DNA of 46,442 nucleotides, from positions 1-46,442 of the forward strand of contig CANFST010000019.1 of the NCBI GenBank assembly GCA_947449695.1. Direction: 5' to 3'. Both the position numbers and the translations under genes were made by a program. The notes beneath the pieces are model-generated. The model made no database searches. It was given only the letters and a program-made list of their open reading frames with translations, and was not told where the DNA came from. The first letter of the stretch is position 1. The number at the start of each line of letters is the position of its first letter. Positions 6,354-28,651 of the stretch are shown here, one piece after another. Origin of the DNA: Chitinophagales bacterium. GTDB taxonomy: Bacteria > Bacteroidota > Bacteroidia > Chitinophagales > CAIODY01.

Positions 6354-9300
6354 TTATTTCACTATTTTATAAGTTTTCTTTCTTTTTTGCGAATTGTTGG
6401 TCAGTACTGCTACATAAAATCCATGTTCAGCACCATTCAAATCAATAGCTTTCACTTCGCTTCCTCCCCCATTTATATCGAAATTTTCAAATTGCTTGAT
6501 GATTTGACCTGCTTCATTATAAATTTCTAATGAATAATTAGATGAACTCCATGATGATGGTGTAGTAATACTTAAAGCTGGGTCAGTTGCGCTATTCAGT
6601 AAGTTGACTTTTTCATCTTCATCCAACCCATCAGAAGTGAAATTAATTGCCACAATATCTGAATATTCAAAAGTACCATCTAAGTTAAATTGTTTCAAAC
6701 GATAGTAGTTATAACCTGATAATGGTTGCTCATCAGTTGAATTATAATTCAAAGTTGATTTGCTATTTCCACCTACTGCTTTAGTTTTTACTTGTGCAAT
6801 TGATTCAAAAGTAATTCCATCGCTACTTCTTTCTACATCAAAATGATCATTATCTGATTCAGTGGCAGTTGCCCAGGTTAAATCAACTTTAGCTTCATTT
6901 TTTTGAGCGTTGAAAAACAACAATTCAATAGGTAATACATTTGCGCCTCCGCTGCTATTTGCCAGTGCAAAAGTTGAAAATGAATTAAAGGCAGAAGGTG
7001 ATGAAGTGGATGTGATACTTCCTGCTCCATTATTCAAAACTCCATTTGTGCCGCCAATGTCAATCCAGCGGTTAGTAGCTAAATAAGTATTTTTAACAAT
7101 AGTTAAATTGCTGACATTTGATATGCCATCATTTGCACCAAAAAATACTTGTATAGTCTGGTTACCACTTAAGTTTTGTGTTGGCTGAGAAGTATTGGAA
7201 GCATCTTTTCTTGTGATAGTATAATAATGAACTAACGACACATTCTGGACGGTCATTGGTATGAAATAATGCAAAGCATTTGCACTTGCATTAATCAGTT
7301 TTGATTGATAAGTGTATAAAGTACCATTTGAATGATTAACTGTTAAAGCAACTGGTCGGCAATCTGTACCATTCCCAATTGGAAAATTTAGTGTAGTTGC
7401 GCCACTGGTAGATTTTTGATAATTCATTGGTCCGTTTACATAACTAGTTGATAATGCAGTTCCAACTGCAGTTGTAGAAGCATTAAGCATAGTTAAAATA
7501 TAACTTGTTGAAGTATTCAACAAGCCTGATGTCAACGTTAAATTATTTGAGACATTTATAGAAGTTGAATTTAATGTTACACCACCGCCAACGGCTGAGT
7601 TATTAATAACTAACCGAGTAAATACTGGAGTTGCTGTGCCAGCAGTGGCATTAATGTTTTGTGCAATAGAACCTCCAAATGTTGCAGTACCATTGCCTTG
7701 ACCAAAAGTAATAGCTGTAGCTGATGGTGATGTAATAGTTAAATTACCATTATAACTACTATTGTTATTGTAGTTTGGATAAACCGGTCCTGTACTGCTT
7801 TGAACAAAGGTTACATCATTATTATAAGTATCGGCAGTATTGTTCGTCATCAATAAATAGCCTGTACCTGTATTTGTAAATGTGCTGCTTCCATTGAATA
7901 CATTTGCACCCGTTGAAGCGTCATTGGTAGTTCCGGTTTTTGTTGAATTAACTATTCCATTAAACGTTGAGCCATTAAAAAACAAACCAGGACTTGAGGT
8001 TGTAATATCACCATTAAATGTTGTACCCGTTGCAAATTGAATATAACTGGTTCCAGTTGTAGCAAGTATTTGTGGTGTAGAGCCTGATTGAACAAAATTT
8101 CTAAAAATTAATCCACCACTATTAAATCCATTTACGCCTATGGTAATTGTTTTGCCACTTGCCAATGTTGCAGTGCCTGTACTTGGTCCAAAATTTATTC
8201 CTCCACCTGCAACATTATTTAATATGATATTGCCATTGAATTGTGTATTGATGCCATAATAGTTGGGATAAATCCAAACTCCACTTGATACAGGTTGATT
8301 GTTGAAAATAACATCTCCATTAAAAATATTTCCAGTGCTGTTGTAGGCAACATACATGTGCTGACCAGTACTTTGATTGTTAAAAGTAGCAGTAGCATTG
8401 AATACATCTGGGTTGCCATTGCCCATTAAAAAATATCCGCTACCTGTATTCGTAATAGTAAATGTTGAGTTGAAAGTGTTGCCACCTGGCGAAGCATCAT
8501 TATTAGAGCCAGTTTTAACTGCATTTACAGTTCTATTAAATGTTCCACCATTAAAAAGAATGGATGGGCTTGAACTTGATACATCACCATCAAAACGTGC
8601 AGTAGAGCCAAAATATAATTGAGCTGTTCCAGCTAATGTAAATGTTTGTGGTGTATTACCAATCTGTGTAAATTGCTTCAATGATAATATACCTGCCGAA
8701 AATCCACCAGCACCAACCGATATAGTTTTTGTTGCTACTAAAGTGGCTGTGGCAGTATTGTTTCCACCACAAAATTGTACACCTTGTCCATTGGTAGAAG
8801 TTACAATAATATTATCATTAAATGTTGTGTTAGCTGAATACCAACCTACATAAATTGCTGAATTTCCAGTAGGTGTATTATTAAAAGTTGTTACACCTCC
8901 AAAAACATTATTAGCAGCATTATATGCAACATAAATCTGACTACTCCCTGTATTATTAAAAGTTGACGCTGCATTGAATTGGTCACGATTTCCATTACCA
9001 AACAACAAATATCCTGAACCTGAATTGGTAAAAGTTGATATACCATTAAAAACATTGTTCCCAGTGCTTGCATCATTTGATGCACCAGTTTTTACGGAAG
9101 TTACAGTGCCATTAAAAGTACATCCGTTAAAATATAATCCTGGGCTGCTTGTTGTAATATTGCCATCGAATGAAGAACTTGGTCCAAATTGCAAATAAGA
9201 TGCAGTGCTGTTCATTGCAATGTTAGTTGAAGAACTTCCTACCTGAGTAAATTGTTTTAAAATTAAATATCCAGCATTTAATCCATTCAAACCCGATTGA

Positions 9301-12300
9301 ATTGATTTTGAATTGGCTAATGTTGCTGTCGCAGTATTATTTCCACCACAAAATTGAATGCCTTGAGCATTCCCAGAAGTATTTACATATATATTGCCAT
9401 TAAACTGATTACCTGCACTTGAATAAGCTGGTAAAATTCTTTCACTACCATTATTGGTAAAGGTTACATCATTATTCCAGATATCCGGATTAGTTCCTCC
9501 GAACAATAAATAACTTGTCCCTGAATTGGTTAAAGAACAAACACCATTAAATGTATTCCCACCTAAACCCCAATCACCTGATATTCCTGTTTTTGTAGCG
9601 TTTAGAGCACCATTAAAAGTACATCCATTTAATAATAAAGCACCACTTGTTGATGTAATGTCACCATTAAAAACTGAAGTCGGCCCAAATGTTAAATTAC
9701 CAGCACCTGTTAGTAATAATGACTGTGAAGTTGCACTTAATTGTGTGAATTGCTTCAGCAACAAAGTACCTGCTGAAAATCCACCTGCACCAACTGCAAT
9801 TGTTTTGTTGGCAGCCAAAGTAACAGTTGCATTACTTGCTCCGCAAAACTGAACTCCCTGCCCAAAGGTTGATGTAACTTCAATATTATCATTAAACAAT
9901 GTGCCTGCTGAATACCAACTCACATATATTCCTGTGTTGGCAGTTGGTGTATTATTGAAAGTTGCCTTACCATTAAAAATATTATTGCTACTGTTATATC
10001 CAACATAAATCTGATTGCTTCCTGTATTATTAAAAGTGGATGCAGCATTAAATTGATCAGGATTTCCATTCCCTAACAATACGTACCCAGCCCCAGAATT
10101 AGTAATATTTACTATGCCATTAAAAATATTTCCACCACTGCTGGCATCACTGCTGTTGCCAGTTTTGGTAGCATTCACAGTGCCATTAAAAGTACATCCA
10201 TTAAAATAAATTGAAGGTGTATTAGTAATGACATTTCCACCAATAACTGAGTTTCGAGCAAATGACAACGAAGTTGTTGAACCACTAAAAGTTAAGTTGA
10301 TTGGTACTGTGCCTAATTGAGTAAATGTGTTTAAATTGAGTGAACCAGCGCTAAAACCAGCATTACCTATAAAAATTGATTTGCCTGAAGCAAGAGTTGG
10401 AGTGCCTGTTCCACCTGTATAACCTAAATTAATTCCGCCAGTGCCTGTTGAAGTAACAATGATTGAATCGTTGAACAACTCATTTGAATTATACCCCAAC
10501 ATAAAGTAACCAGTATTACTTTGTTGATTAATGGTACACGATGCGTTAAAGATATTTTGTTGTTGATTGTTATGATTAGATGAACCACCAGTTTTGGTGA
10601 AAGTGGCAGGAGCATTAAATGTTGCCCCTTCTACCCAAATATCCGGAGCAGTTACATTAAACGAACCGTTGAATATAGAAGGGCTTAAAGTTTTAAAAAT
10701 ATATAAACTTGCTGTACCAGTTAAGGTTAAATTGATTCCAGTCGATGAGCCTAATTGTGCAAATCCACCAAAATTTAAAGAGCCAGCACTGAAGCCAGCA
10801 CTGCCAATATAAATATTTTTCCCTGCTGCTAATGTTGGTGTACCTGTGCTTCCAGGTTGCCATCCTAAATAAATTCCACCTGTCCCAGTTGAAGAAACAA
10901 TAATAGAATCGTTAAATAATTCATTGGAATTATAACCCAACATAAAATAACCAGTGTTACTTTGTTGATTGATAGTACAAGATGCGTTGAAAATATTTTG
11001 GTATTGTTGATTGTGATTGGAATTACCACCAGTTTTTGTAAAAATGGCTCTGTTGTTAAATGTTCCGCCCATTACACTGATATTGGGAGCAGTGACGTTA
11101 AACACACCATTGAAAACACAATTGCCAGTTGTTTTGTAAATGTTAAGTGTAGCACTGCCTGTAAGCGTTAAATTAATTCCACTTGATGAACCCAACTGAA
11201 TAAATCCACCTAAATTTAATGACCCAACTGAAAAGCCAGCACTACCAATATAAATATTTTTACCAGCCGCTAACGTTGGTGTACCAGTGCTTCCAGGTTG
11301 CCATCCTAAATAAATTCCACCTGTCCCAGTTGAAGAAACAATGATAGAATCATTAAACAAATCATTAGAGTTATACCCTACCATAAAATAACCTGTATTG
11401 CTTTGTTGATTGATTGTACAAGAAGCATTGAAAATATTCTGGTATTGATTATTGTGATTGTATATACCACCAGTTTTATTGAAAGTCACTCTGCCATTGT
11501 ATGTTGCACCTTGTGCCCAAATATCAGGTGCAGTTGCGGTAAATACCCCACCAAAAACTGATGATGGCCCAAGATATAAAACTGAAGTGCCTGTTGCAGT
11601 TAAATTGATGGGTGCAGTACCCGATTGAATAAATTGCTTTAAATGTAAATATCCAACCGTTAAACCTCCAGAGCCAGGTTGAATAGTTTTACCTGAAGCT
11701 AACAGAGCAGTTGCGGTATTATTTCCACCGCAAAATTGAATTCCTTGTGCGCTGCCTGATGTGTTCACATAAATATTGCCATTGAATTGATTGCCCACAC
11801 TTGACCAGGCGGGCAATAATCTTTCAGAGCCACTATTGGTAAAGGTTACATCGTTGTTCCATATATCAGGATTGGTTGATCCCATCAATAAATAACTACT
11901 ACCTGTATTAGTTATGGCTGATACGCCTTGAAATGTATTGCCACCTTGCCCCCAATCACCAGTTGAACCAGTTTTTGTTAAATTAGTTGTGCCGCTAAAT
12001 ATTGCCCCATTCATATACAATGTAGGACTTGATGCTACAACATTTCCACCGAAATTTGAGAAAGGTCCAAATGTTAGATTACCTGTTCCGGTCAAAGTAA
12101 AATTTTGTGCAGTACTTCCGATTTGAGTAAACTGACGAAGTAATAACGTGCCTGCTGAAAATCCGGCAACACCAATCGAAATTGTTTTCAGAGCAGCTAA
12201 AGTTGCATTAGAAGTATTATTGCCGCCACAAAACTGAACACCCTGCCCATTGGTTGATGTTACTACAATATTTTCATTGAAAGAGGTATTTGCCGATAAC

Positions 12301-12995
12301 CAACTTACATAAATAGTTCCAGAAGTATTGTTAGGTGCATTATTGAATGTGGTTATACCAGCAAAAATATTGTTACTGCTGTTGTACGCCAAATAAATAT
12401 GATTACTTCCTATATTGTTAAAAGTTGCCGTAGAATTGAACTGATCGGGGTTTCCATTACCCATCATTAAATAACCAGAACCAGAATTGGTCATGATTAC
12501 TGCCCCATTAAAAATATTATTTCCCGAACTGGCATCATTAGATGATCCGGTTTTTGTTAAAGTTAAAGTATTTTGAAAAATTGTTTTAGTAATAGTAATT
12601 GTGGCTGAAGTAACATTCACTATGCAATTCATAGTCACGTTACTGCTTCCAAATGTTGTTGTTGTTGCGCCTGAAATAGTTAATGTCCCATTTTGAATAG
12701 TGCCCAAAGTAAATGTGGCATTAGTACCACCAACAGTCAATGTATTACCGCCTAAATCAAATGTGCCACTAGTTAAAGTTAAATTTTTAACTGATGAAGA
12801 AGAGTTTAAAATACAATTTCTACTGCCAGTTACAATAGTAATATTATCATTTGCTGTAGGTACTCCATTTGGAGTCCAATTAGTTGAAACATTAAAAGCT
12901 GTTGAGGTATTTCCGTTCCATGTATAAGAAGTTTGCGCCAATGCGATTTGCATCGAAGCAATCATCAAAACAGAATGGAGTAAAATGTTTTTCAT
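6354..12995 (-). CDS. Giant modular T9SS-secreted surface protein (2213 aa)
   Basis: A cell-surface or secreted protein. A signal peptide (residues 1-20, cleavage after QIALA) is followed by a long Asn/Thr/Ser/Gly-rich beta-solenoid-like region. From about residue 148 to 1760 it consists of ten modules, each opening with a KTG segment and containing a GNGNPDQFN, GSTNPDIWN or GYNSNELFN motif; five also carry QFCGGNN or QFCGASN. Three near-identical modules in the middle contain INQQSNTGYFM. Near residue 2020 begins a beta-sandwich segment (LPIELLFFNAQ...DHFDVERSSDG) and the last ~75 residues are a type A T9SS sorting domain ending in KKTYKIVK, which directs outer-membrane export and anchoring. 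No catalytic domain is visible; adhesion or matrix function is an inference. The C-terminus is paralogous to that of the protein at 33513. Confidence 0.9.
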   Translation of the reverse strand: MKNILLHSVLMIASMQIALAQTSYTWNGNTSTAFNVSTNWTPNGVPTANDNITIVTGSRNCILNSSSSVKNLTLTSGTFDLGGNTLTVGGTNATFTLGTIQNGTLTISGATTTTFGSSNVTMNCIVNVTSATITITKTIFQNTLTLTKTGSSNDASSGNNIFNGAVIMTNSGSGYLMMGNGNPDQFNSTATFNNIGSNHIYLAYNSSNNIFAGITTFNNAPNNTSGTIYVSWLSANTSFNENIVVTSTNGQGVQFCGGNNTSNATLAALKTISIGVAGFSAGTLLLRQFTQIGSTAQNFTLTGTGNLTFGPFSNFGGNVVASSPTLYMNGAIFSGTTNLTKTGSTGDWGQGGNTFQGVSAITNTGSSYLLMGSTNPDIWNNDVTFTNSGSERLLPAWSSVGNQFNGNIYVNTSGSAQGIQFCGGNNTATALLASGKTIQPGSGGLTVGYLHLKQFIQSGTAPINLTATGTSVLYLGPSSVFGGVFTATAPDIWAQGATYNGRVTFNKTGGIYNHNNQYQNIFNASCTINQQSNTGYFMVGYNSNDLFNDSIIVSSTGTGGIYLGWQPGSTGTPTLAAGKNIYIGSAGFSVGSLNLGGFIQLGSSSGINLTLTGSATLNIYKTTGNCVFNGVFNVTAPNISVMGGTFNNRAIFTKTGGNSNHNQQYQNIFNASCTINQQSNTGYFMLGYNSNELFNDSIIVSSTGTGGIYLGWQPGSTGTPTLAAGKNIYIGSAGFSAGSLNFGGFAQLGSSTGINLTLTGTASLYIFKTLSPSIFNGSFNVTAPDIWVEGATFNAPATFTKTGGSSNHNNQQQNIFNASCTINQQSNTGYFMLGYNSNELFNDSIIVTSTGTGGINLGYTGGTGTPTLASGKSIFIGNAGFSAGSLNLNTFTQLGTVPINLTFSGSTTSLSFARNSVIGGNVITNTPSIYFNGCTFNGTVNATKTGNSSDASSGGNIFNGIVNITNSGAGYVLLGNGNPDQFNAASTFNNTGSNQIYVGYNSSNNIFNGKATFNNTPTANTGIYVSWYSAGTLFNDNIEVTSTFGQGVQFCGASNATVTLAANKTIAVGAGGFSAGTLLLKQFTQLSATSQSLLLTGAGNLTFGPTSVFNGDITSTSGALLLNGCTFNGALNATKTGISGDWGLGGNTFNGVCSLTNSGTSYLLFGGTNPDIWNNDVTFTNNGSERILPAYSSAGNQFNGNIYVNTSGNAQGIQFCGGNNTATATLANSKSIQSGLNGLNAGYLILKQFTQVGSSSTNIAMNSTASYLQFGPSSSFDGNITTSSPGLYFNGCTFNGTVTSVKTGASNDASTGNNVFNGISTFTNSGSGYLLFGNGNRDQFNAASTFNNTGSSQIYVAYNAANNVFGGVTTFNNTPTGNSAIYVGWYSANTTFNDNIIVTSTNGQGVQFCGGNNTATATLVATKTISVGAGGFSAGILSLKQFTQIGNTPQTFTLAGTAQLYFGSTARFDGDVSSSSPSILFNGGTFNRTVNAVKTGSNNDASPGGNTFNSTFTITNTGSGYFLMGNGNPDVFNATATFNNQSTGQHMYVAYNSTGNIFNGDVIFNNQPVSSGVWIYPNYYGINTQFNGNIILNNVAGGGINFGPSTGTATLASGKTITIGVNGFNSGGLIFRNFVQSGSTPQILATTGTSYIQFATGTTFNGDITTSSPGLFFNGSTFNGIVNSTKTGTTNDASTGANVFNGSSTFTNTGTGYLLMTNNTADTYNNDVTFVQSSTGPVYPNYNNNSSYNGNLTITSPSATAITFGQGNGTATFGGSIAQNINATAGTATPVFTRLVINNSAVGGGVTLNSTSINVSNNLTLTSGLLNTSTSYILTMLNASTTAVGTALSTSYVNGPMNYQKSTSGATTLNFPIGNGTDCRPVALTVNHSNGTLYTYQSKLINASANALHYFIPMTVQNVSLVHYYTITRKDASNTSQPTQNLSGNQTIQVFFGANDGISNVSNLTIVKNTYLATNRWIDIGGTNGVLNNGAGSITSTSSPSAFNSFSTFALANSSGGANVLPIELLFFNAQKNEAKVDLTWATATESDNDHFDVERSSDGITFESIAQVKTKAVGGNSKSTLNYNSTDEQPLSGYNYYRLKQFNLDGTFEYSDIVAINFTSDGLDEDEKVNLLNSATDPALSITTPSSWSSSNYSLEIYNEAGQIIKQFENFDINGGGSEVKAIDLNGAEHGFYVAVLTNNSQKRKKTYKIVK

Positions 12996-21646: not shown

Positions 21647-22345
21647 ATGCAAAAAACATTTTTAATCGCTGGAGGCAGCAGTGGAATTGGGTTAGCGTTA
21701 GTCAATCAATTGGTGGAAAACGGAAACGAGGTGATTGTTTTCTCAAGAAACAGAAATTCGTTGGCTGAAAACATTGAGCATCATGCAATCGATTTTAGTG
21801 CCGATGAATTGCAACTTCCAATCATCGAAAAACCAATTGATGGATTTGTTTACTTGCCAGGAAGCATACAGCTAAAACCTTTCAGAGCATTTAGCAAAAA
21901 AGATTTTTTAGAAGATTTCAATTTGAATGTGTTGGGTGCCACTGAATGTTTGAAAAAATATTTCACCAATTTATCGCAAACAAAAAATGCAAGTGTGGTA
22001 TTAATGAGTTCAGTAGCGGTAAATGTCGGCATGCCCTTTCATACCCTAGTAAGCAGCAGCAAAGGGGCTCTAGAAGGATTAACAAAAACTTTAGCTGCCG
22101 AATTTTCACCCAATATCAGAGTGAATGCTATTGCACCATCACTTACAGAAACACCATTGGCAGAAAAATTTTTAAACACCGAAGAGAAACGTAAAGCCAG
22201 TATAGAAAGGCATCCGATGAAACAAATTGGTTCGGCAGATGATGTGGCAAGTTTGATTTCATTTATATTATCGCCACAAAGTAAATTTATGACTGGTCAA
22301 ATTATTCAAGTGGATGGCGGCATGAGCAGCATCCGAAAATTTTAG
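21647..22345 (+). CDS. Short-chain dehydrogenase/reductase lacking the catalytic tyrosine
   Basis: A 232-residue Rossmann-fold SDR protein. The NAD(P) motif GGSSGIG is at the start, and the C-terminal part (VNAIAPSLTETPLAEKF, GQIIQVDGGMSS) is classical. The active site is not: the usual Tyr-x-x-x-Lys reads V135-S-S-S-K139 (codon GTA at 22049-22051), and the NNAG motif is replaced by YLPG. The serine in VLMSSVAV is kept. The protein may use another residue, act on a different chemistry, or be a non-enzymatic family member. Its last four bases overlap the end of the convergent LysR gene. Reading frame and length are intact, so it is not a pseudogene. Confidence 0.9.
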   Translation: MQKTFLIAGGSSGIGLALVNQLVENGNEVIVFSRNRNSLAENIEHHAIDFSADELQLPIIEKPIDGFVYLPGSIQLKPFRAFSKKDFLEDFNLNVLGATECLKKYFTNLSQTKNASVVLMSSVAVNVGMPFHTLVSSSKGALEGLTKTLAAEFSPNIRVNAIAPSLTETPLAEKFLNTEEKRKASIERHPMKQIGSADDVASLISFILSPQSKFMTGQIIQVDGGMSSIRKF

Positions 22346-23265
22346 TATTTCTCAAACCAATCAAATTTGTTTTTGATGATGTTGCTTTTTTCTTTTTTGA
22401 TGTAAGTCAAAAATGCTTCGGCGACAGGAGAAAACTTTTTGTCCTTCATCCACACTAAATTCCAAACCGATTTTATTGGAAATCCTTTTACAGGAATGAT
22501 TTGCAAATCGCCATTGTGCAGTTCGTTTTTAATTCCAATCAAAGGCATGATGGAAAACCCTAAACCTGCTATCACAGCTTGTTTTACAGCTTCGTTACTG
22601 GTCAGTTCCATTTTCTTTTTTACTGGCAAATGATTGCGCTCAATAAATTTTTCCATTGTTAATCTGGTTCCTGAACCTTGTTCGCGATAAATCATCGGCA
22701 ACTTTTCAAAAATAGATTTGTCATAGATTTTTTGCTTGAATTTTTGTTCAGTATTACCTACCAAGTATAATTTGTTTTGCAACAATTCAATTTTTTGAAT
22801 TTGCGAATTATCTGGCAATACACTCACCAATGAAAAATCAACTTCATTCTTTTCTAAACTTTCCACCACTTTGGTTTTGTTGGTTACATCCATTTGTAAT
22901 TCAATGCCCTCATGCAGTTTGATAAAATCTGCTAAGAAATAAGGCATCACATATTTTGCAGTTGATACTACTGAAAGCTTCAATCTGCCGCTCATCTGAC
23001 CTTTATGTGCCAAAGTTTTGTAATTGATTTTATACACCTCATTCAAAATATTTTCGGCAGCAATAGCAATCTCTTTTCCAAAATCGGTGATAAATAATTT
23101 TCTGCCCACCACTTCAGTCAAAGGAATTTCAAATTGTTCTTGAAAATTTTTAAGCTGAATAGAAACCGCAGGTTGGCTTAAATAAAGCTCTTCAGCAGCT
23201 TTTGTAATGCTTTGTGTTTGCGCAATTTTCAAAAATACTTGTAGTTGTCGTAATGTATAATCCAT
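22342..23265 (-). CDS. LysR-family regulator, CbbR/CmpR-like
   Basis: A 307-residue DNA-binding activator. The winged helix-turn-helix is at residues 5-60 (FLKIAQTQSITKAAEELYLSQPAVS), followed by the periplasmic-binding-protein-like effector domain with YREQGSGTRLTMEKFIE and ELTSNEAVKQAVIAGLGFSIMP. These two segments are characteristic of the CbbR/RbcR/CmpR group, which controls CO2 fixation or bicarbonate uptake genes. It is divergent from the icd-carbonic anhydrase-sbtA run, 94 bases away, so it very likely controls that operon. A good promoter is present (23281-23309). The CbbR-like placement is by eye from motifs and would be settled by a tree. Confidence 0.88.
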   Translation of the reverse strand: MDYTLRQLQVFLKIAQTQSITKAAEELYLSQPAVSIQLKNFQEQFEIPLTEVVGRKLFITDFGKEIAIAAENILNEVYKINYKTLAHKGQMSGRLKLSVVSTAKYVMPYFLADFIKLHEGIELQMDVTNKTKVVESLEKNEVDFSLVSVLPDNSQIQKIELLQNKLYLVGNTEQKFKQKIYDKSIFEKLPMIYREQGSGTRLTMEKFIERNHLPVKKKMELTSNEAVKQAVIAGLGFSIMPLIGIKNELHNGDLQIIPVKGFPIKSVWNLVWMKDKKFSPVAEAFLTYIKKEKSNIIKNKFDWFEKY

Positions 23266-23280
23266 AAGTTTTGTTTATGA

Positions 23281-23309
23281 CAAAGATAAAAAGGTTAAAT
23301 AAAAACAAA
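23281..23309 (-). promoter_or_regulatory. Consensus Bacteroidota promoter of the LysR gene
   Basis: Read on the minus strand, TTTG (23306-23309) and TATCTTTG (23281-23288) are 17 bases apart. It starts the LysR transcript close to its ATG at 23265. A near-dyad around 23320-23340 (TGCATTTTTGCA) in the same intergenic region might be an operator; that is a guess. Confidence 0.6.
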
Positions 23310-23359
23310 TGAATTAGGCACTGCATTTTTGCACCGTCAAAATTTAAACAATAAACAAC

Positions 23360-24799
23360 ATGCAAAAAATAACTGTAGCAAAAGGAGATGGCATCGGACC
23401 TGAAATTATGGATGCCACTTTAGAAATCATCAAAGCCGCTGGGGCAAAAATTGAAATAGAAGAAATTGAAGTTGGTGAAAAAGTTTATTTAGCAGGCAAC
23501 ACAGCAGGCATCGCAAAAGAATCATGGGATGTAATTCGTAGAAATAAAATTTTCTTAAAAGCTCCAATCACTACACCACAAGGCGGTGGCTATAAAAGTT
23601 TGAATGTTACTACCAGAAAATTTTTGGGATTATATTCAAATGTTCGCCCTTGCACTAGTTTTCATCCATTTGTAAAAACGAAGCATCCTGCAATGGATTT
23701 GGTGATTATTCGTGAAAATGAAGAAGATTTATATGCAGGTATTGAACATCAACAAACTGATGAAGTGGTGCAATGTTTAAAATTAATTAGTCGCCCGGGC
23801 TGTGAAAAAATAGTTAGATATGCTTTTGAATATGCTAAGCAATATGGCAGAAAAAAAGTAACCTGTTTTACAAAAGATAACATCATGAAACAGACTGATG
23901 GCTTGTTTCATCAAGTGTTTAATGAAATTGCAGCAGAATATCCACAAATAGAAAATGAGCATTGGATAATTGATATTGGCGCTGCAAAAATGGCTGATAC
24001 ACCTGAAGCATTTGATGTGATAGTGATGCCGAATTTATATGGTGATATATTATCGGATGTGGCTGCACAAATTGCTGGTTCAGTTGGATTGGCAGGTTCT
24101 GCAAACATTGGTGAAGAGTGTGCCATGTTTGAGGCAATACATGGTTCGGCGCCAAGAAGAGCTGGTCAAAATATGGCAAACCCATCAGGCTTATTACATG
24201 GTGCAATTTTGATGTTGAATCATATTGGGCAAACTGAAGTGGCTGAAAAAGTTCACAACGCATGGCTTTATACTATTGAAGAAGGAATTCATACTTATGA
24301 TGTTTTCAAGGAAGGTATTAGCAAAGAAAAAGTAGGAACAAAAGAATTTGCTCAAGCCGTAATTAAAAATTTAGGAAAAAAACCAACAACGCTTAAAGCT
24401 GTAAATTATTCCAACGGAAGCAGTTTAAAATTACCAAAATACAAACGTAGAGCACCTGCAAAAAAAGATTTAGTTGGTGTGGATGTTTTTGTAAACTGGC
24501 AAGGATTGAATGCTGATGAATTAGCCGCTAAGCTTAATCCAATTGAAAAACTATGCAATGTAAAATTAAGCATGATTACCAATCGTGGAATAAAAGTGTG
24601 GCCCGACGGATTTCCAGAAACTTTTTGCACCGACCATTGGCGATGCAGAATGAAGCCAAAAGATGGTTTGATGCTACCTAAAAAAACGATTGCAGAAATT
24701 TTAACACAATGCGAATTATTAGGAATTGATACCATTAAAACAGAGAACCTGTATGAGTTTGATGGCAAATCAGGATTTTCATTAGGTCAAGGACAATAA
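23360..24799 (+). CDS. icd: Isocitrate dehydrogenase, Thermus-like type with C-terminal domain
   Basis: A 479-residue cytosolic enzyme that oxidatively decarboxylates isocitrate to 2-oxoglutarate, releasing CO2. The catalytic core matches the isocitrate/isopropylmalate dehydrogenase family: AKGDGIGPEIM, NVTTRKFLGLYSNVRPC, the metal-binding NLYGDILSDVAAQIAGSVGL, and the cofactor loop HGSAPRRAG, whose arginines suggest NADP. A C-terminal extension of about 140 residues (from VGVDVFVNWQGLNADEL to the end) is the extra domain known in Thermus- and Rickettsia-type enzymes of 480-500 residues. It leads the run of genes facing a CbbR-like regulator. A TCA enzyme in a bicarbonate-uptake cluster is unusual. 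Confidence 0.93.
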   Translation: MQKITVAKGDGIGPEIMDATLEIIKAAGAKIEIEEIEVGEKVYLAGNTAGIAKESWDVIRRNKIFLKAPITTPQGGGYKSLNVTTRKFLGLYSNVRPCTSFHPFVKTKHPAMDLVIIRENEEDLYAGIEHQQTDEVVQCLKLISRPGCEKIVRYAFEYAKQYGRKKVTCFTKDNIMKQTDGLFHQVFNEIAAEYPQIENEHWIIDIGAAKMADTPEAFDVIVMPNLYGDILSDVAAQIAGSVGLAGSANIGEECAMFEAIHGSAPRRAGQNMANPSGLLHGAILMLNHIGQTEVAEKVHNAWLYTIEEGIHTYDVFKEGISKEKVGTKEFAQAVIKNLGKKPTTLKAVNYSNGSSLKLPKYKRRAPAKKDLVGVDVFVNWQGLNADELAAKLNPIEKLCNVKLSMITNRGIKVWPDGFPETFCTDHWRCRMKPKDGLMLPKKTIAEILTQCELLGIDTIKTENLYEFDGKSGFSLGQGQ

Positions 24800-24813
24800 A
24801 AAAACAAAACTAT

Positions 24814-25053
24814 ATGCAATTCATTCAAGGTCATTTTTCAAAGCAAGAAGCAATTGAAATTCTAACTCAAATTGTTCATGTAAAAATAAAATTTCATGAA
24901 AACAAAATTCACTCAACTTCTAATGAAGAGGATATTAAAATGAGGGAAAAAAGAATTAAACAATTGCAAAAAGATTTGTACGAAGCAAGAATTAAAATCG
25001 AACAAAATCAAAAAAATAAAATCAGCCTGAATGGCGAATTAATAATTAATTAA
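24814..25053 (+). CDS. Small coiled-coil protein, paralogue A
   Basis: A 79-residue, very polar protein of unknown function. The first 30 residues contain QGHFSKQEAIEILTQIVHVK and KIKFHENKI; residues 40-66 (EEDIKMREKRIKQLQKDL) form a probable coiled coil. The same plan (EA...LL..L...KI.FH..K, then a charged helix) recurs in the next gene, so the two are tandem paralogues. It begins 14 bases after icd and ends 4 bases before its paralogue, so both are in the icd-carbonic anhydrase-sbtA operon. It lacks the PII fold of SbtB. Confidence 0.8.
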   Translation: MQFIQGHFSKQEAIEILTQIVHVKIKFHENKIHSTSNEEDIKMREKRIKQLQKDLYEARIKIEQNQKNKISLNGELIIN

Positions 25054-25057
25054 AAGC

Positions 25058-25348
25058 ATGAAACACATTCAACAATTCAAGTTAATAGATGGAACTTTTG
25101 AAACGGAAGAAGCTCGAAACCTTTTGCTGGAGCTAATTAGCTACAAAATAAATTTTCATGCTAAAGAAAAATTCAGCAATCAAGAACGATTTGGAAAAGA
25201 TGTTTTGAATTCAGGAAAAAGAATGGAGGAATTAAAAGAAGAAGAAACAGCTTTAAGAAAATTATTGGAAAAAGTGAAATCAGAAAACTTCAGATTAAAT
25301 GTAAAATGCAATATCGAAATAGAAATTATTAATCAACAAACAAAATGA
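25058..25348 (+). CDS. Small coiled-coil protein, paralogue B
   Basis: A 96-residue protein homologous to the preceding one: FKLIDGTFETEEARNLLLEL, then YKINFHAKEKF, then a strongly charged helix (GKRMEELKEEETALRKLLEK). It has no signal peptide, membrane segment or metal motif. Its stop overlaps the carbonic anhydrase start as ATGA at 25345-25348, which points to translational coupling. Position suggests an accessory or structural role for the carbonic anhydrase or permease, but nothing in the sequence proves that. Confidence 0.8.
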   Translation: MKHIQQFKLIDGTFETEEARNLLLELISYKINFHAKEKFSNQERFGKDVLNSGKRMEELKEEETALRKLLEKVKSENFRLNVKCNIEIEIINQQTK

Positions 25349-26052
25349 AAAACAAAATTTTTAAATTAAGCTTACTTACTACAATTCTTATTAGCAGTGC
25401 ATTTGTGTATGTTCAACAAGTGCAAACAAATTTGATGACAAAAGAATCGCAACAGAAAATTACTTCGAATGAAGCACTTGAAAAACTGAAAGCTGGCAAT
25501 GAAAGATTTGTATCAGGAAATGAATTAAAACACAATCATAAAGAAGAAGTAGCGCAAACTGCGAATGGACAATATCCTTACGCTGTAATCTTAAGTTGTA
25601 TTGATTCACGAGTTTCCTCAGAAATTATTTTTGACCAAAATTTAGGTGATGTATTCAATGCTCGAATTGCTGGAAATATTGTAAATACTGATATTTTGGG
25701 CAGTATGGAGTTTGCTTGTAAAGTAGCTGGTGCAAAATTAATTGTGGTAGTTGGGCATACAAAATGTGGTGCTATCAAAGGAGCATGCGACCATGTTGAG
25801 TTAGGAAATTTGACTCATTTAGTGAATGAAATTAAGCCAGCAGTGGATAGTGTAAAAAATATTTCAGGCGAACGAAATTCAAAAAACGATGCTTTTGTAA
25901 GAGCGGTTGCATTGAAAAATATTGAGTTAACCATCAAAGAAATTCGCCTAAAAAGCCCGATTTTAAAAGAATTGGAAGATAATGGAAAAATAAAAATCGT
26001 AGGCGCATTATATGATGTAAGCACAGGAAAAGTAAATTTCAATTTGAACTAA
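25345..26052 (+). CDS. Exported beta-class carbonic anhydrase
   Basis: A 235-residue enzyme interconverting CO2 and bicarbonate. The zinc ligands of the beta class are all present: Cys85 in SCIDSR, Asp87/Arg89 as the catalytic dyad, and His138/Cys141 in VGHTKCGA. An N-terminal hydrophobic segment (residues 6-22, LSLLTTILISSAFVYV) is a signal peptide or anchor, so the enzyme acts outside the cytoplasm. The segment EALEKLKAGNERFVSGN is the usual beta-CA start. It overlaps the upstream small gene and sits 9 bases before the next one. With a bicarbonate permease two genes on, it could supply the periplasmic substrate of the permease. Confidence 0.95.
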   Translation: MKNKIFKLSLLTTILISSAFVYVQQVQTNLMTKESQQKITSNEALEKLKAGNERFVSGNELKHNHKEEVAQTANGQYPYAVILSCIDSRVSSEIIFDQNLGDVFNARIAGNIVNTDILGSMEFACKVAGAKLIVVVGHTKCGAIKGACDHVELGNLTHLVNEIKPAVDSVKNISGERNSKNDAFVRAVALKNIELTIKEIRLKSPILKELEDNGKIKIVGALYDVSTGKVNFNLN

Positions 26053-26061
26053 ATCAATCAA

Positions 26062-26898
26062 ATGTTTGAAGGAAGAAAAATAATTATTTCAACGAAACAT
26101 TCAAAAGAACAAGTGATTGCGCCCTTGTTGGAAAAGCATTTGCATGTAAAATGTTTTGTGCCTGAAAATTTTGACACAGATAAATTAGGAACATTTTCAG
26201 GAGAAATTGAAAGAGAACACGACCCAATAACTACGCTACGCAACAAATGTTTGATGGCAATGGAGCAATATAATTGCGACTTAGGAATAGCCAGTGAAGG
26301 CTCATTTGGAGCTCACCCTACGTTATTTTTTGTTCCTGCTGATGATGAATTTGTAATGCTGATTGACAAAAAAAATGGTTTAGAAATTGTAGCTCGTGAG
26401 CTTTCAACGCTAACAAATTTTAGTGCTGAATTTATTTCTACAGAAAAGGAATTAAAAGCATTTGCTGAAAAAATAAATTTTCCGTCACATGGTTTAATAA
26501 TAAAAAAATCAGAAAAAGAATTAGGTGAAATGCAAAAAGGAATAACAGATTGGAATACTTTAAATAGTGCATTCCAAAGCATGTTGAGGCAAAATGGAAA
26601 GGCTTATGTAGAAACAGATATGAGAGCAATGATGAATCCAACACGAATGAGTGTAATTGAAAAAGCCACAGAAAAATTAATTGAAAAAATAAAATCCACT
26701 TGCCCTCAATGCAATACACCAGGTTTCTCAATAACCGATTCAAAGGCAGGTTTGCCGTGTGAAAATTGCGGCTTCCCAACAAAATCAACTTTAAGTTATT
26801 TATATCAATGTGCTAAATGTTCCTTCACAAAAGAAGAAAAATTTCCAAAACAAAAAACAGTTGAAGACCCAATGTATTGCGACATCTGCAATCCATAA
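26062..26898 (+). CDS. Zinc-ribbon protein of unknown function (DUF6671-like)
   Basis: A 278-residue cytosolic protein. The N-terminal two-thirds (RKIIISTKHSKEQVIAPLLE, CDLGIASEGSFGAHPTLFFV) match what I recall of the uncharacterised DUF6671 family. The last ~65 residues carry four CxxC pairs, CPQC, CENC, CAKC and CDIC, consistent with two zinc ribbons. The reading frame is intact and in the carbonic anhydrase-sbtA run (9-base gap upstream, 42-base gap downstream). No enzyme motif is evident. Nucleic acid binding or metal-dependent regulation are possible but unproven. Confidence 0.8.
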   Translation: MFEGRKIIISTKHSKEQVIAPLLEKHLHVKCFVPENFDTDKLGTFSGEIEREHDPITTLRNKCLMAMEQYNCDLGIASEGSFGAHPTLFFVPADDEFVMLIDKKNGLEIVARELSTLTNFSAEFISTEKELKAFAEKINFPSHGLIIKKSEKELGEMQKGITDWNTLNSAFQSMLRQNGKAYVETDMRAMMNPTRMSVIEKATEKLIEKIKSTCPQCNTPGFSITDSKAGLPCENCGFPTKSTLSYLYQCAKCSFTKEEKFPKQKTVEDPMYCDICNP

Positions 26899-26940
26899 CA
26901 TTTCTAAAAATAAAATTAAACCAAACAAAAAACAAACACA

Positions 26941-27903
26941 ATGGACTTTCACATTTTAATTTCAAACTTAACCAACCCAACTTTATTGTTTTTCGCTTTA
27001 GGCGTATTTGCCATCCTAGTGAAAAGTGATTTAGAAATTCCTGCATCTTCCAGCAAATTTATTTCATTGTATTTATTGTTTTCCATCGGCTTCAAAGGCG
27101 GACAGGAATTGGCACACAGCGGTTTCACCACTGAAATTATTTATTCACTTTTATTCGCCATATCGATTGCATCTATCATTCCGCTGTATACTTTTTTTAT
27201 TCTTAAACGCAAAATGAGTATCAGCGATGCAGCTGCTGTGGCTGCGGCTTATGGCTCGGTGAGTGCAGTAACATTTGTGGCAGCAGTTTCATTTTTAGAT
27301 GCGCAGAAAATAGTTTACGGCGGTCACATGGTGGCTGTGATGGCTTTGATGGAATCTCCTGCCATTATCATGGGTGTAATTTTGCTGATGAAATTTGATG
27401 CTGAAAATAGAAGCGAAGGAAAATTGACCCAAACCATAAAACACTCTTTCACTAATGGAAGTGTCATCATGATTTTGGGAAGTTTAATTATCGGATTTAT
27501 TGCCGATACCAAACAAGCTGAAGGCATCAAACCTTTTACAACAGATATTTTCAAAGGATTTCTTGCAATTTTCCTTTTAGAAATGGGAATGGTAACTGCT
27601 CGAAGATTTTCAGCTTTCAAAAAATATGGCTGGTTTGCAACCGCTTTCGCCATTGTAATTCCTTTACTAAATGGCTGCGCTGTAGCGGCTTTGAGTGGTT
27701 TGTTTATTCACGACATGGGTAACAGATTCATCTTCGCAATTTTGGCTGCAAGTGCATCTTACATTGCAGTGCCAGCGGCTATGCGATTAGCAGCTCCAAA
27801 AGCAGACCCAGGGCTTTATATACCAATGGCTTTAGGAATTACTTTCCCTTTCAACATTACGATTGGGATGCCCTTGTATTATTTGATTGTTCAAAATATT
27901 TAA
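26941..27903 (+). CDS. sbtA: SbtA-type sodium-dependent bicarbonate permease
   Basis: A 320-residue inner-membrane protein with about ten hydrophobic helices in two halves. The family-specific segments are GVFAILVKSDLEIP near residue 20, FSIGFKGGQELAHSG near 50, AAAVAAAYGSVSAVTFVAA near 96, MALMESPAIIMGVILL near 137 and the C-terminal SASYIAVPAAMRLAAPKADPGLY. These match the DUF897/SbtA bicarbonate symporter family of cyanobacteria and other bacteria. It ends the run icd, small genes, carbonic anhydrase and zinc-ribbon protein. No SbtB (PII-like regulator) gene is adjacent. Confidence 0.92.
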   Translation: MDFHILISNLTNPTLLFFALGVFAILVKSDLEIPASSSKFISLYLLFSIGFKGGQELAHSGFTTEIIYSLLFAISIASIIPLYTFFILKRKMSISDAAAVAAAYGSVSAVTFVAAVSFLDAQKIVYGGHMVAVMALMESPAIIMGVILLMKFDAENRSEGKLTQTIKHSFTNGSVIMILGSLIIGFIADTKQAEGIKPFTTDIFKGFLAIFLLEMGMVTARRFSAFKKYGWFATAFAIVIPLLNGCAVAALSGLFIHDMGNRFIFAILAASASYIAVPAAMRLAAPKADPGLYIPMALGITFPFNITIGMPLYYLIVQNI

Positions 27904-28289: not shown

Positions 28290-28333
28290 AAAATTATTGT
28301 TTAAAAGTTAAGAAATTACGTGTAAAAGTGCAT

Positions 28334-28499
28334 TGGGCGGCAGCCCACAACTTTTGGGCAGATGCCCCGAAAAGTTGGGCGGATACCCAAAAACCTTGGG
28401 CGGATGAAAATTTATTTTGGGCGGCAGCCCACATTGATTGGGCGGATGCCCACAATCTCTGGGCGGCAGCCCCTAACGCTTGGGCAGATGCCCAAACCA
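28334..28499 (+). repeat. 21-bp palindromic array, eight units
   Basis: The motif TGGGC-RGMW-GCCCA recurs at 28334, 28355, 28376, 28397, 28418, 28439, 28460 and 28481, an exact 21-base step. The 14-base palindromic core is conserved (degenerate in units 3 and 4), and the seven bases between cores differ in every unit. 21 bases is two helical turns, so all cores face one side of the DNA. Read on the plus strand the repeat would give WADAHNL-like heptads and on the minus strand LWAAAQ-like ones; both frames are short and lack start signals, so coding is doubtful. Confidence 0.9.
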
Positions 28500-28620: not shown

Positions 28621-28651
28621 AAAGCGAACCTTATTGGTTCGCTTTGCTTTT
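28621..28651. terminator. Bidirectional terminator
   Basis: A perfect 10-bp stem (AAAGCGAACC/GGTTCGCTTT) with a five-base loop, flanked by A and T runs on both sides. It lies downstream of the minus-strand gene ending at 28768 and can stop transcription from either side. Confidence 0.85.

Follow-up and report, generated by a model that had tools for sequence, protein, structure and literature searches.

We have analyzed a stretch of 46,442 nucleotides of DNA from a Chitinophagales bacterium, referred to as the window (contig CANFST010000019.1 of assembly GCA_947449695.1, which is 99.4% complete in 99 contigs). It contains six close-set genes on the forward strand, encoding an isocitrate dehydrogenase (icd), two small proteins (smA and smB), a beta-carbonic anhydrase (CA), a DUF6671 protein and a permease of the Sbt_1 superfamily, opposite a gene for a LysR-type regulator on the reverse strand (Table 1). 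The intergenic gaps from icd to the permease are 14, 4, -4 (an ATGA overlap), 9 and 42 bases, so that every gene is present and as tightly packed opposite LysR as described in the initial annotation of this DNA. The arrangement is beyond chance, given its recurrence, the co-occurrence of its genes and the common operator in relatives. On balance we favor the view that it is the bicarbonate-supply operon of a heterotroph, under a LysR protein of the CbbR/NdhR radiation that in relatives sits at icd, at the permease or at both. The genes, the relatives of the regulator, the common operator and the recurrent neighbors are all read directly from sequence.

Table 1. Features of the operon, its regulator and its flanks (window coordinates)
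Feature	Position	Strand	Basis
LysR-type regulator, CbbR/NdhR radiation, 307 aa	22342..23265	-	HTH_1 and LysR_substrate domains; match to 5y2v; tree; ligand-site residues
Divergent operator/promoter region	23266..23359		Motif search on 100 upstream regions; window letters
icd, isocitrate dehydrogenase of TIGR02924/PRK09222 type	23360..24799	+	Pfam; NCBIfam cut-offs
smA, 79 aa, unnamed small-protein family	24814..25053	+	Aligned with smB
smB, 96 aa, paralogue of smA	25058..25348	+	AlphaFold2 model; family survey
Beta-carbonic anhydrase, signal-like N-terminus	25345..26052	+	NF011765; zinc motif
DUF6671 protein, 278 aa	26062..26898	+	PF20376, 342 bits
Sbt_1 superfamily permease, putative Na+/HCO3- symporter, outside the canonical SbtA1 clade	26941..27903	+	PF05982; tree
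Terminator-like hairpin, 10 pairs, 3' of the operon	28621..28645	+	Pattern match only

The genome gives no sign of autotrophy, in agreement with the initial annotation. There is no match to PF00016 (RuBisCO) in it, and we reject autotrophy on this ground (the search did not extend to ATP-citrate lyase or pyruvate carboxylase). The earlier statement that SbtB is missing also holds: PF00543 (P-II/SbtB) finds no match in an assembly of this completeness, and the same search was positive in 13 of 14 control genomes.

Neighbors and operator of the regulator in related genomes

The product of icd scores above the cut-offs of two models (TIGR02924, 722 bits against 561; NF006673, 788 bits against 509). 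A second isocitrate dehydrogenase, by eye of a different type, lies at G000:C27 of the same genome, and the window gene is thus not the sole one.

Of 248 genomes of the order, 59 carry a LysR orthologue (E up to 1e-60). PF18324 finds matches in 106 of the 248, and 72 genomes were counted as having icd of this type (at least 124 bits, with two truncated matches among the 72), the weaker matches (65-93 bits and below) being left out. Using Fisher tests that take the genomes as independent and ignore shared ancestry, LysR was found together with this icd in 46 genomes against 17.1 expected, with the permease in 28 against 10.7, and with DUF6671 in 19 against 6.2. The genes are also physically close. 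In 37 of the 59 genomes LysR is no more than 3.5 kb away from an icd of this type, and in 20 it is at most 6 kb from the permease; it is near both in nine and near either in 48. In 38 further LysR regions, icd is found on the opposite strand within 3.5 kb in 28, and smA/smB matches in 14. Icd had been regarded as an addition to a bicarbonate operon. It is instead the commonest neighbor of the regulator among those tested, also in genomes lacking the permease, and we would call the system a LysR-icd-permease regulon rather than an SbtA operon to which icd has been added.

These data bear on the original proposal for icd, that it is co-induced because its decarboxylation yields CO2 for carboxylases. 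Icd does produce CO2, and the CA and permease share its operon. However, LysR-icd pairs exist without a permease, the genome has its second isocitrate dehydrogenase, and respiration yields CO2 anyway. We consider the proposal very unlikely.

Permease neighborhoods were collected from 40 of the 45 permease genomes among the 248 (L031-L070), together with the best 80 permease places, closest to the query, among the matches listed in named genomes. Five loci with near-identical permeases were dropped, leaving 115 Sbt_1 loci, of which at least five are from outside the Bacteroidota (L150-L154) and three (L078, L093, L121) also bear other names. A divergent LysR gene is found upstream in 63 of the 115 (58 of the 98 whose upstream sequence extends to 4 kb or more), smA/smB in 28, icd in 19 and DUF6671 in 19. 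Flavobacterium luteum (L104) and Polaribacter filamentus (L125) are examples of species in which LysR adjoins the permease. CA of the window type is present in six, and a cytosolic CA or SulP lies nearby in 16. The combination of LysR, icd and DUF6671 occurs in ten loci, and the complete gene set of the window only here. Recurrence across Bacteroidota, which the initial annotation proposed to check, holds for the parts of the operon, found again in many families; the exact order of six genes is particular to this genome among the 115 loci. Within the same genus, the LysR of genome G067 (83% complete) is 97% identical, and the gene immediately after it, at a contig end, is smB.

Small open reading frames (ORFs) with at least one hydrophobic stretch lie between LysR and the permease in 24 of 66 loci of relatives, as judged by a crude hydropathy rule with no null, such that some may be spurious; examples are L034, L053, L057, L082, L091, L105, L115 and L127. 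None was seen upstream of the permease in the packed operon of the window. In three loci (L035, L044 and L061) a type-I-secretion-like trio, named by eye as ABC ATPase, membrane fusion protein and outer-membrane factor, is situated near the permease.

The smA and smB proteins are homologous by alignment. Neither has a match in Pfam or NCBIfam, and one smA homologue matches DUF7073 below the cut-off. An AlphaFold2 model of smB predicts a strand-helix-helix-strand fold (mean pLDDT, the predicted local distance difference test, 91.3), for which no structural match was found at E up to 0.001. Members of the family occupy 39 places in 33 of the 248 genomes, with 29 near LysR, seven near icd only and three near neither; LysR is present in 32 of these 33 genomes, the search profile having been built from regulon members and being biased to them. 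The smA gene follows icd in permease-free genomes too (e.g., L166-L168). A role as partners of Icd alone or of the permease alone is not favored, since LysR is the common denominator, and from its distribution the family appears almost confined to the LysR regulon.

The regulator gene is associated with a common upstream pattern. One hundred dereplicated upstream regions (of 102) were aligned without gaps at the LysR start codon. A palindromic expectation-maximization search gave a score of 259.9, against at most 15.9 in four mononucleotide shuffles run with fewer restarts than the real sequences, and sites above 6 bits were found in 87 of the 100. The pattern comprises a palindrome of the type TTTATG-N5-CATAA located 8 bases from the LysR start (TTATG is exact at the fixed place in 56 regions, and in degenerate form in 74), an ATAAATA box at fixed distance, and a TTTG box at positions 57-70 in 88 regions, compared with a shuffled rate of 0.04. 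The TTTG box resembles what we take to be the -7 element of Bacteroidota. In the window the palindrome-like sequence is TTTATGACAAAGATAAA at 23274-23290, with a TTAAATA box next to it and the TTTG box at 23328-23331. The operator consensus is alike in regions where the first gene is icd (40), sbtA (31) or another gene (29).

Other features of the window were also noted. Terminator-like hairpins are not enriched (three found, shuffled mean 5.0), a sigma-70 scan gave 14 sites, fewer than the mean of 24.0 in shuffled sequence, and was set aside, and an Rfam search of the window gave no match. An ORF of 2213 aa at 6354-12995 on the reverse strand has no Pfam match at E up to 1e-5.

Kinship and effector sites of the regulator

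The LysR protein exceeds the cut-offs of both PF00126 and PF03466. The closest solved structures are 5y2v (entitled 'Rubisco operon transcriptional regulator'; residues 1-293, 185 bits) and CmpR (5z49), and the protein falls under the cut-off of the NCBIfam CbbR equivalog model (NF045990, 187.8 of 450 bits). We constructed a tree from 48 of 118 collected rows, with few outgroups, with long branches flagged and with the CmpR fragment left out. The 34 Bacteroidota rows all group together in a single clade (100/100) in which permease-side and icd-side regulators are intermixed, its sister group being unresolved. This clade belongs to the CbbR/NdhR radiation (96/85), which excludes E. coli YeiE, CynR, CysB and OxyR. 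The earlier designation of the regulator as CbbR/CmpR-like is therefore upheld by the placement in the radiation (CmpR not being in the tree) and by the matches to 5y2v and 5z49.

We also considered a YeiE-type LysR acting with a nearby YeiH gene. The window LysR scores 156 bits with YeiE-family models, and a gene for a YeiH-family putative transporter (PF03601; 28768-29709, reverse strand) is found 0.9 kb beyond the permease. However, E. coli yeiE is directly opposite yeiH, whereas the window gene has no LysR opposite it, and E. coli YeiE falls outside the CbbR/NdhR clade (96/85), on a long branch. The pairing is rejected as highly improbable. A short array of 21-base units (TTGGGCGGATGCCCA-like) at 28333-28485 lies between the permease and the YeiH gene, within ORFs of both strands.

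The structure 5y2v is taken to be NdhR, as its letters agree at all 11 residues named for NdhR in the excerpted text of PMC13249358 (one, printed 'Lys10', is read as Lys104). That excerpt gives 2-oxoglutarate and 2-phosphoglycolate as the effectors of NdhR, the former bound at an interface site (K104, Y105, S224 and N225) and the latter in a cleft (T101, T102, H130, N164, R195, T201 and R267). All four interface residues are identical in the window LysR. They are conserved in 59, 64, 56 and 64, respectively, of 64 sbtA-side regulators, and in 35, 38, 38 and 35 of 38 other Bacteroidota regulators. At the seven cleft positions the window LysR has S, T, K, N, R, T and S, i.e., four are identical and three different. 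Position 130 is lysine in 60 and arginine in four of the 64 sbtA-side regulators, and position 267 is threonine, serine or alanine in all 64; in the 38 other regulators it is T (19), S (16), N (2) or E (1), and never arginine. Arg267 is retained in NdhR, CmpR, four CbbR references and three cyanobacterial LysR proteins, and also in E. coli YeiE, CynR and OxyR. In the four CbbR references, position 130 is R or Q, S is present at 101 in three, and K104 is replaced in two. The loss of 2-phosphoglycolate contacts would fit an organism lacking RuBisCO.

We propose that the regulator reads a metabolite that would fall at HCO3- shortage. Of such metabolites 2-oxoglutarate would be the best candidate, since Icd produces it and NdhR responds to it, and we put it forward tentatively, as a possible ligand. 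A 2-oxoglutarate signal would allow the joint adjustment of Icd and of bicarbonate supply, the latter being needed for oxaloacetate and so in turn for 2-oxoglutarate. If this were true, the regulator would be a carbon/nitrogen sensor in a genome with no P-II match.

A further bicarbonate-linked case was seen on a Catenovulum plasmid (L210), where a CbbR-like LysR gene is opposite genes for biotin carboxylase and oxaloacetate decarboxylase alpha (oadA). We take this LysR to be PycR-like.

The permease, DUF6671 and a proposed bicarbonate supply

The permease is the sole PF05982 match in the genome (390 bits, cut-off 27), and aligns with Synechocystis SbtA (7cye) with E 7.9e-24. Residues 178-212 of 7cye fall between two matched stretches, so that the central loop of the window permease looks shorter. 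In a tree of 25 rows, in which the 7cye row was typed from the two aligned stretches with the loop omitted, a 100/100 branch of length 5.17 sets Synechocystis SbtA1 and a Pseudanabaena relative apart from all the remaining rows, the window permease among them. Two motifs also differ from SbtA1, with YGSVSAVT replacing FGAVSGST and SASYIAVP replacing SSSDISGP. The permease is of SbtA type as first described, in that it belongs to PF05982, but it stands outside the canonical SbtA1 clade.

The CA was correctly recognized, as it exceeds the NF011765 cut-off and its zinc motif (C85-x-D87-x-R89 / H138-x-x-C141) is complete; its proposed export is suggested by a signal-like N-terminus read by eye. 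A second beta-CA, at G000:C3, has by eye no signal-like N-terminus. In two cyanobacterial contigs (L150, Leptolyngbyaceae, and L152, Nostoc) an Sbt_1 permease 52% identical to that of the window is followed by a window-type beta-CA (38-39% identical).

These genes suggest the following scheme, which we regard as probable. The CA, probably exported, would make HCO3- from CO2 present outside the cytoplasm, some of it released by respiration. The permease would bring in HCO3- together with Na+, and this would feed biosynthetic carboxylations, for example by acetyl-CoA carboxylase, in carbamoyl phosphate synthesis and by Sua5/TsaC.

The bicarbonate role originally claimed draws support from the neighbors in relatives, which include the cytosolic CA or SulP genes, the bicarbonate-using Sua5, and DUF6671, which also accompanies DabAB. 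A sua5 gene (PF01300 and PF03481) precedes the permease in 11 of the 120 loci, with no more than 150 bases between them. YRDC, the human Sua5 homologue, uses CO2/bicarbonate according to the excerpt of PMC5951830. A gene that we name dihydroorotase-like (it matches PF01979 only) is located within 160 bases in three loci. On a Cereibacter plasmid, an Sbt_1 gene of the same broad permease clade is beside a LysR gene that faces rbcLS. Locus L034 also has a DabA-like match (85-1653; 28% identity, E 7e-56) about 8 kb from its Sbt_1 permease operon, and may hold both kinds of carbon pump.

It might be argued that a permease of this clade carries some other small anion, such as an organic acid linked to isocitrate or 2-oxoglutarate, in an operon for tricarboxylic acid metabolism where the CA is incidental. 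The distance from SbtA1 and the altered motifs would be consistent with this, as would the prominence of icd beside the regulator and the rarity of window-type CA (6/115 loci). Against that stand the cytosolic CA or SulP (16/115) and Sua5 genes in relatives, the Cereibacter member of the permease clade beside rbcLS and its LysR, and the association of DUF6671 with DabAB as well. We consider transport of another anion unlikely.

The DUF6671 protein has four CxxC pairs in its C-terminus, their cysteines invariant in 21 homologues. In its model (pLDDT 91.8), the part ahead of this C-terminus shows some resemblance to ITPase/YjjX/HcgB-like folds. The best Foldseek match is 1u5w (E 4.7e-4, TMq 0.30), and VIA gives Z of up to 12.8, to 1vp2 (root-mean-square deviation 4.5, 138 aligned), with no activity implied. 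In a plasmid collection, 12 records contain 15 DUF6671 places. Every record was examined, 14 places in all, the exception being a second one in Aminobacter. On nine of the 12 plasmids, which come from phyla other than Bacteroidota, DUF6671 is within 4 kb of DabA-DabB or Sbt_1. Genes for DabB and DabA (annotated as proton-conducting/NADH-quinone subunit and DUF2309) adjoin it in Aminobacter, Fuscovulum, Ideonella and Mycolicibacterium, and on two Mesorhizobium plasmids cysD alone lies between DUF6671 and DabB/DabA. Sbt_1 is beside DUF6671 at all five places in three Arthrobacter records, which are probably related copies. Near DUF6671 are also found a proton-conducting subunit and Sua5 (Nocardia), pyrC, ilvD and an acyl-CoA carboxylase subunit (Methylocystis), and TerC and pyrC with a partial permease match about 6 kb away (P. 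hygromyciniae). In 14 DUF6671 regions of the order, fetched mainly as being away from the permease, icd, Sua5 or the dihydroorotase-like gene is close in seven. We infer that DUF6671 is part of inorganic-carbon handling. Its link to carbon pumps is the most novel part of the case, and we found no paper naming DUF6671 in the open-licence literature. On the plasmids ilvD, cysD or pyrC travel with DUF6671 (L217, L220, L222, L224, L225, L226, L228 and L249), mostly beside DabAB or Sbt_1.

Some of these neighbors could indicate a stress island for alkaline pH and sodium or for metal limitation, with bicarbonate uptake as one part and pH, Na+ or metal as the signal. Genes of the TerC family accompany Sbt_1 or DUF6671, adjacent or close by, in L054, Aureimonas, Pseudomonas, Mycolicibacterium and Arthrobacter U41; an Arthrobacter locus has NhaA and a calcium/sodium antiporter nearby, and IlvD and dihydroorotase, both among the neighbors, are metal-dependent enzymes. 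Yet TerC and IlvD are each found only once among 158 scanned permease or LysR loci (IlvD in a Verrucomicrobiota locus), where the prevailing neighbors are LysR, icd and smA/smB. We give the stress island only a small chance of being correct.

Returning to the proposed bicarbonate-supply regulon, DUF6671 and smA/smB may also belong to this circuit and might have regulatory roles; the genome itself has no P-II/SbtB match. A broader idea, which we offer as speculative and rather doubtful, is that DUF6671, with a domain of nucleotide-binding type and a cysteine-rich tail, is a general and so far undescribed component of bacterial inorganic-carbon uptake. It would serve both Sbt_1 and the unrelated DabAB pump in Bacteroidota, Pseudomonadota and Actinomycetota, and might be a gate or sensor comparable to SbtB of cyanobacteria. 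In Bacteroidota it would then belong, with smA/smB, to a regulon read by 2-oxoglutarate that sets both isocitrate dehydrogenase and bicarbonate supply.

A number of observations weigh against a bicarbonate-supply regulon of this kind. In 11 of its 59 genomes the regulator lies away from both icd and the permease, and 31 of the 59 have no permease. Conversely, an upstream LysR is absent from 52 of the 115 Sbt_1 loci (and from 40 of the 98 with 4 kb or more of sequence on that side). In the same genus, G030 has none of LysR, permease, DUF6671 and this type of icd. The permease is far from characterized SbtA1 with both conserved motifs altered, so that HCO3- is a putative substrate, inferred from family and neighbors. 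Because CmpR binds ribulose 1,5-bisphosphate at the interface site (excerpt of PMC13249358), the conservation of that site is no proof of 2-oxoglutarate; its residues are largely common to autotrophic CbbR proteins, and 2-oxoglutarate is not singled out. Phosphoenolpyruvate carboxylase was not found in the genome (pyruvate carboxylase was not searched for). Lastly, seven of the 14 DUF6671 regions of the order contain none of the queried genes, and DabA/DabB is present in none of the 14.

Comparison with known systems

The initial annotation was thus accurate in its observation and mostly right in its general reading, while the permease is not a canonical SbtA1 and icd is not a passenger. SbtA in heterotrophic Bacteroidota was already known (PMC5932025 and PMC4148732, as excerpted). 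The excerpt of PMC5932025 describes SbtA in proteorhodopsin-bearing marine Flavobacteriia and proposes an anaplerotic role. The hosts are likewise heterotrophic Bacteroidota; that text reports the presence of the gene, without this regulator, icd, DUF6671 or the small proteins. No paper on a LysR-icd-SbtA link in Bacteroidota was found in the open-licence literature, judged by titles and abstracts. To our knowledge, bicarbonate supply in air has been worked out for few heterotroph models. These include MpsAB of S. aureus and the carbonic anhydrase of E. coli (PMC6689103, in the part cited). The regulon offers a defined regulator, operator and gene set with which bicarbonate supply can be tested in Bacteroidota, and suggests that a regulator family known from autotrophs has been turned to central metabolism.

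The NdhR (CcmR) regulon of Synechocystis, in which a LysR protein of the same radiation governs an Sbt_1 bicarbonate transporter, with 2-oxoglutarate and 2-phosphoglycolate as effectors (PMC13249358, excerpt), is similar, and the interface residues are kept. The window differs in having no RuBisCO match in the genome, in the replacement of cleft residues 130 and 267, in the inclusion of icd in the regulon, and in an operator that is opposite the regulator gene itself. The CbbR proteins of Calvin-cycle operons also belong to this LysR radiation, and in Cereibacter the LysR gene has rbcLS on one side and an Sbt_1 gene on the other. The window LysR, however, is under the equivalog cut-off (188 of 450 bits), in a genome lacking a RuBisCO match.

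With the cyanobacterial SbtA1/SbtB(/SbtC) systems the window shares PF05982, and the small membrane ORF in 24 of 66 loci of relatives recalls the SbtC layout given in the excerpt of PMC13360264. The window permease, in contrast, belongs to a separate clade and has a shorter-looking loop, with no small membrane ORF seen and no P-II match in the genome. The DabA-DabB (DAB/DAC) loci employ an unrelated transporter, which is absent from the annotated genes of the window and found in relatives once, as the DabA-like match of L034. The likeness lies in the DUF6671 companion, present at DabA-DabB on six of the 12 plasmids (next to it in four and separated from it by cysD in two), which would make DUF6671 a common partner of two unrelated carbon pumps.

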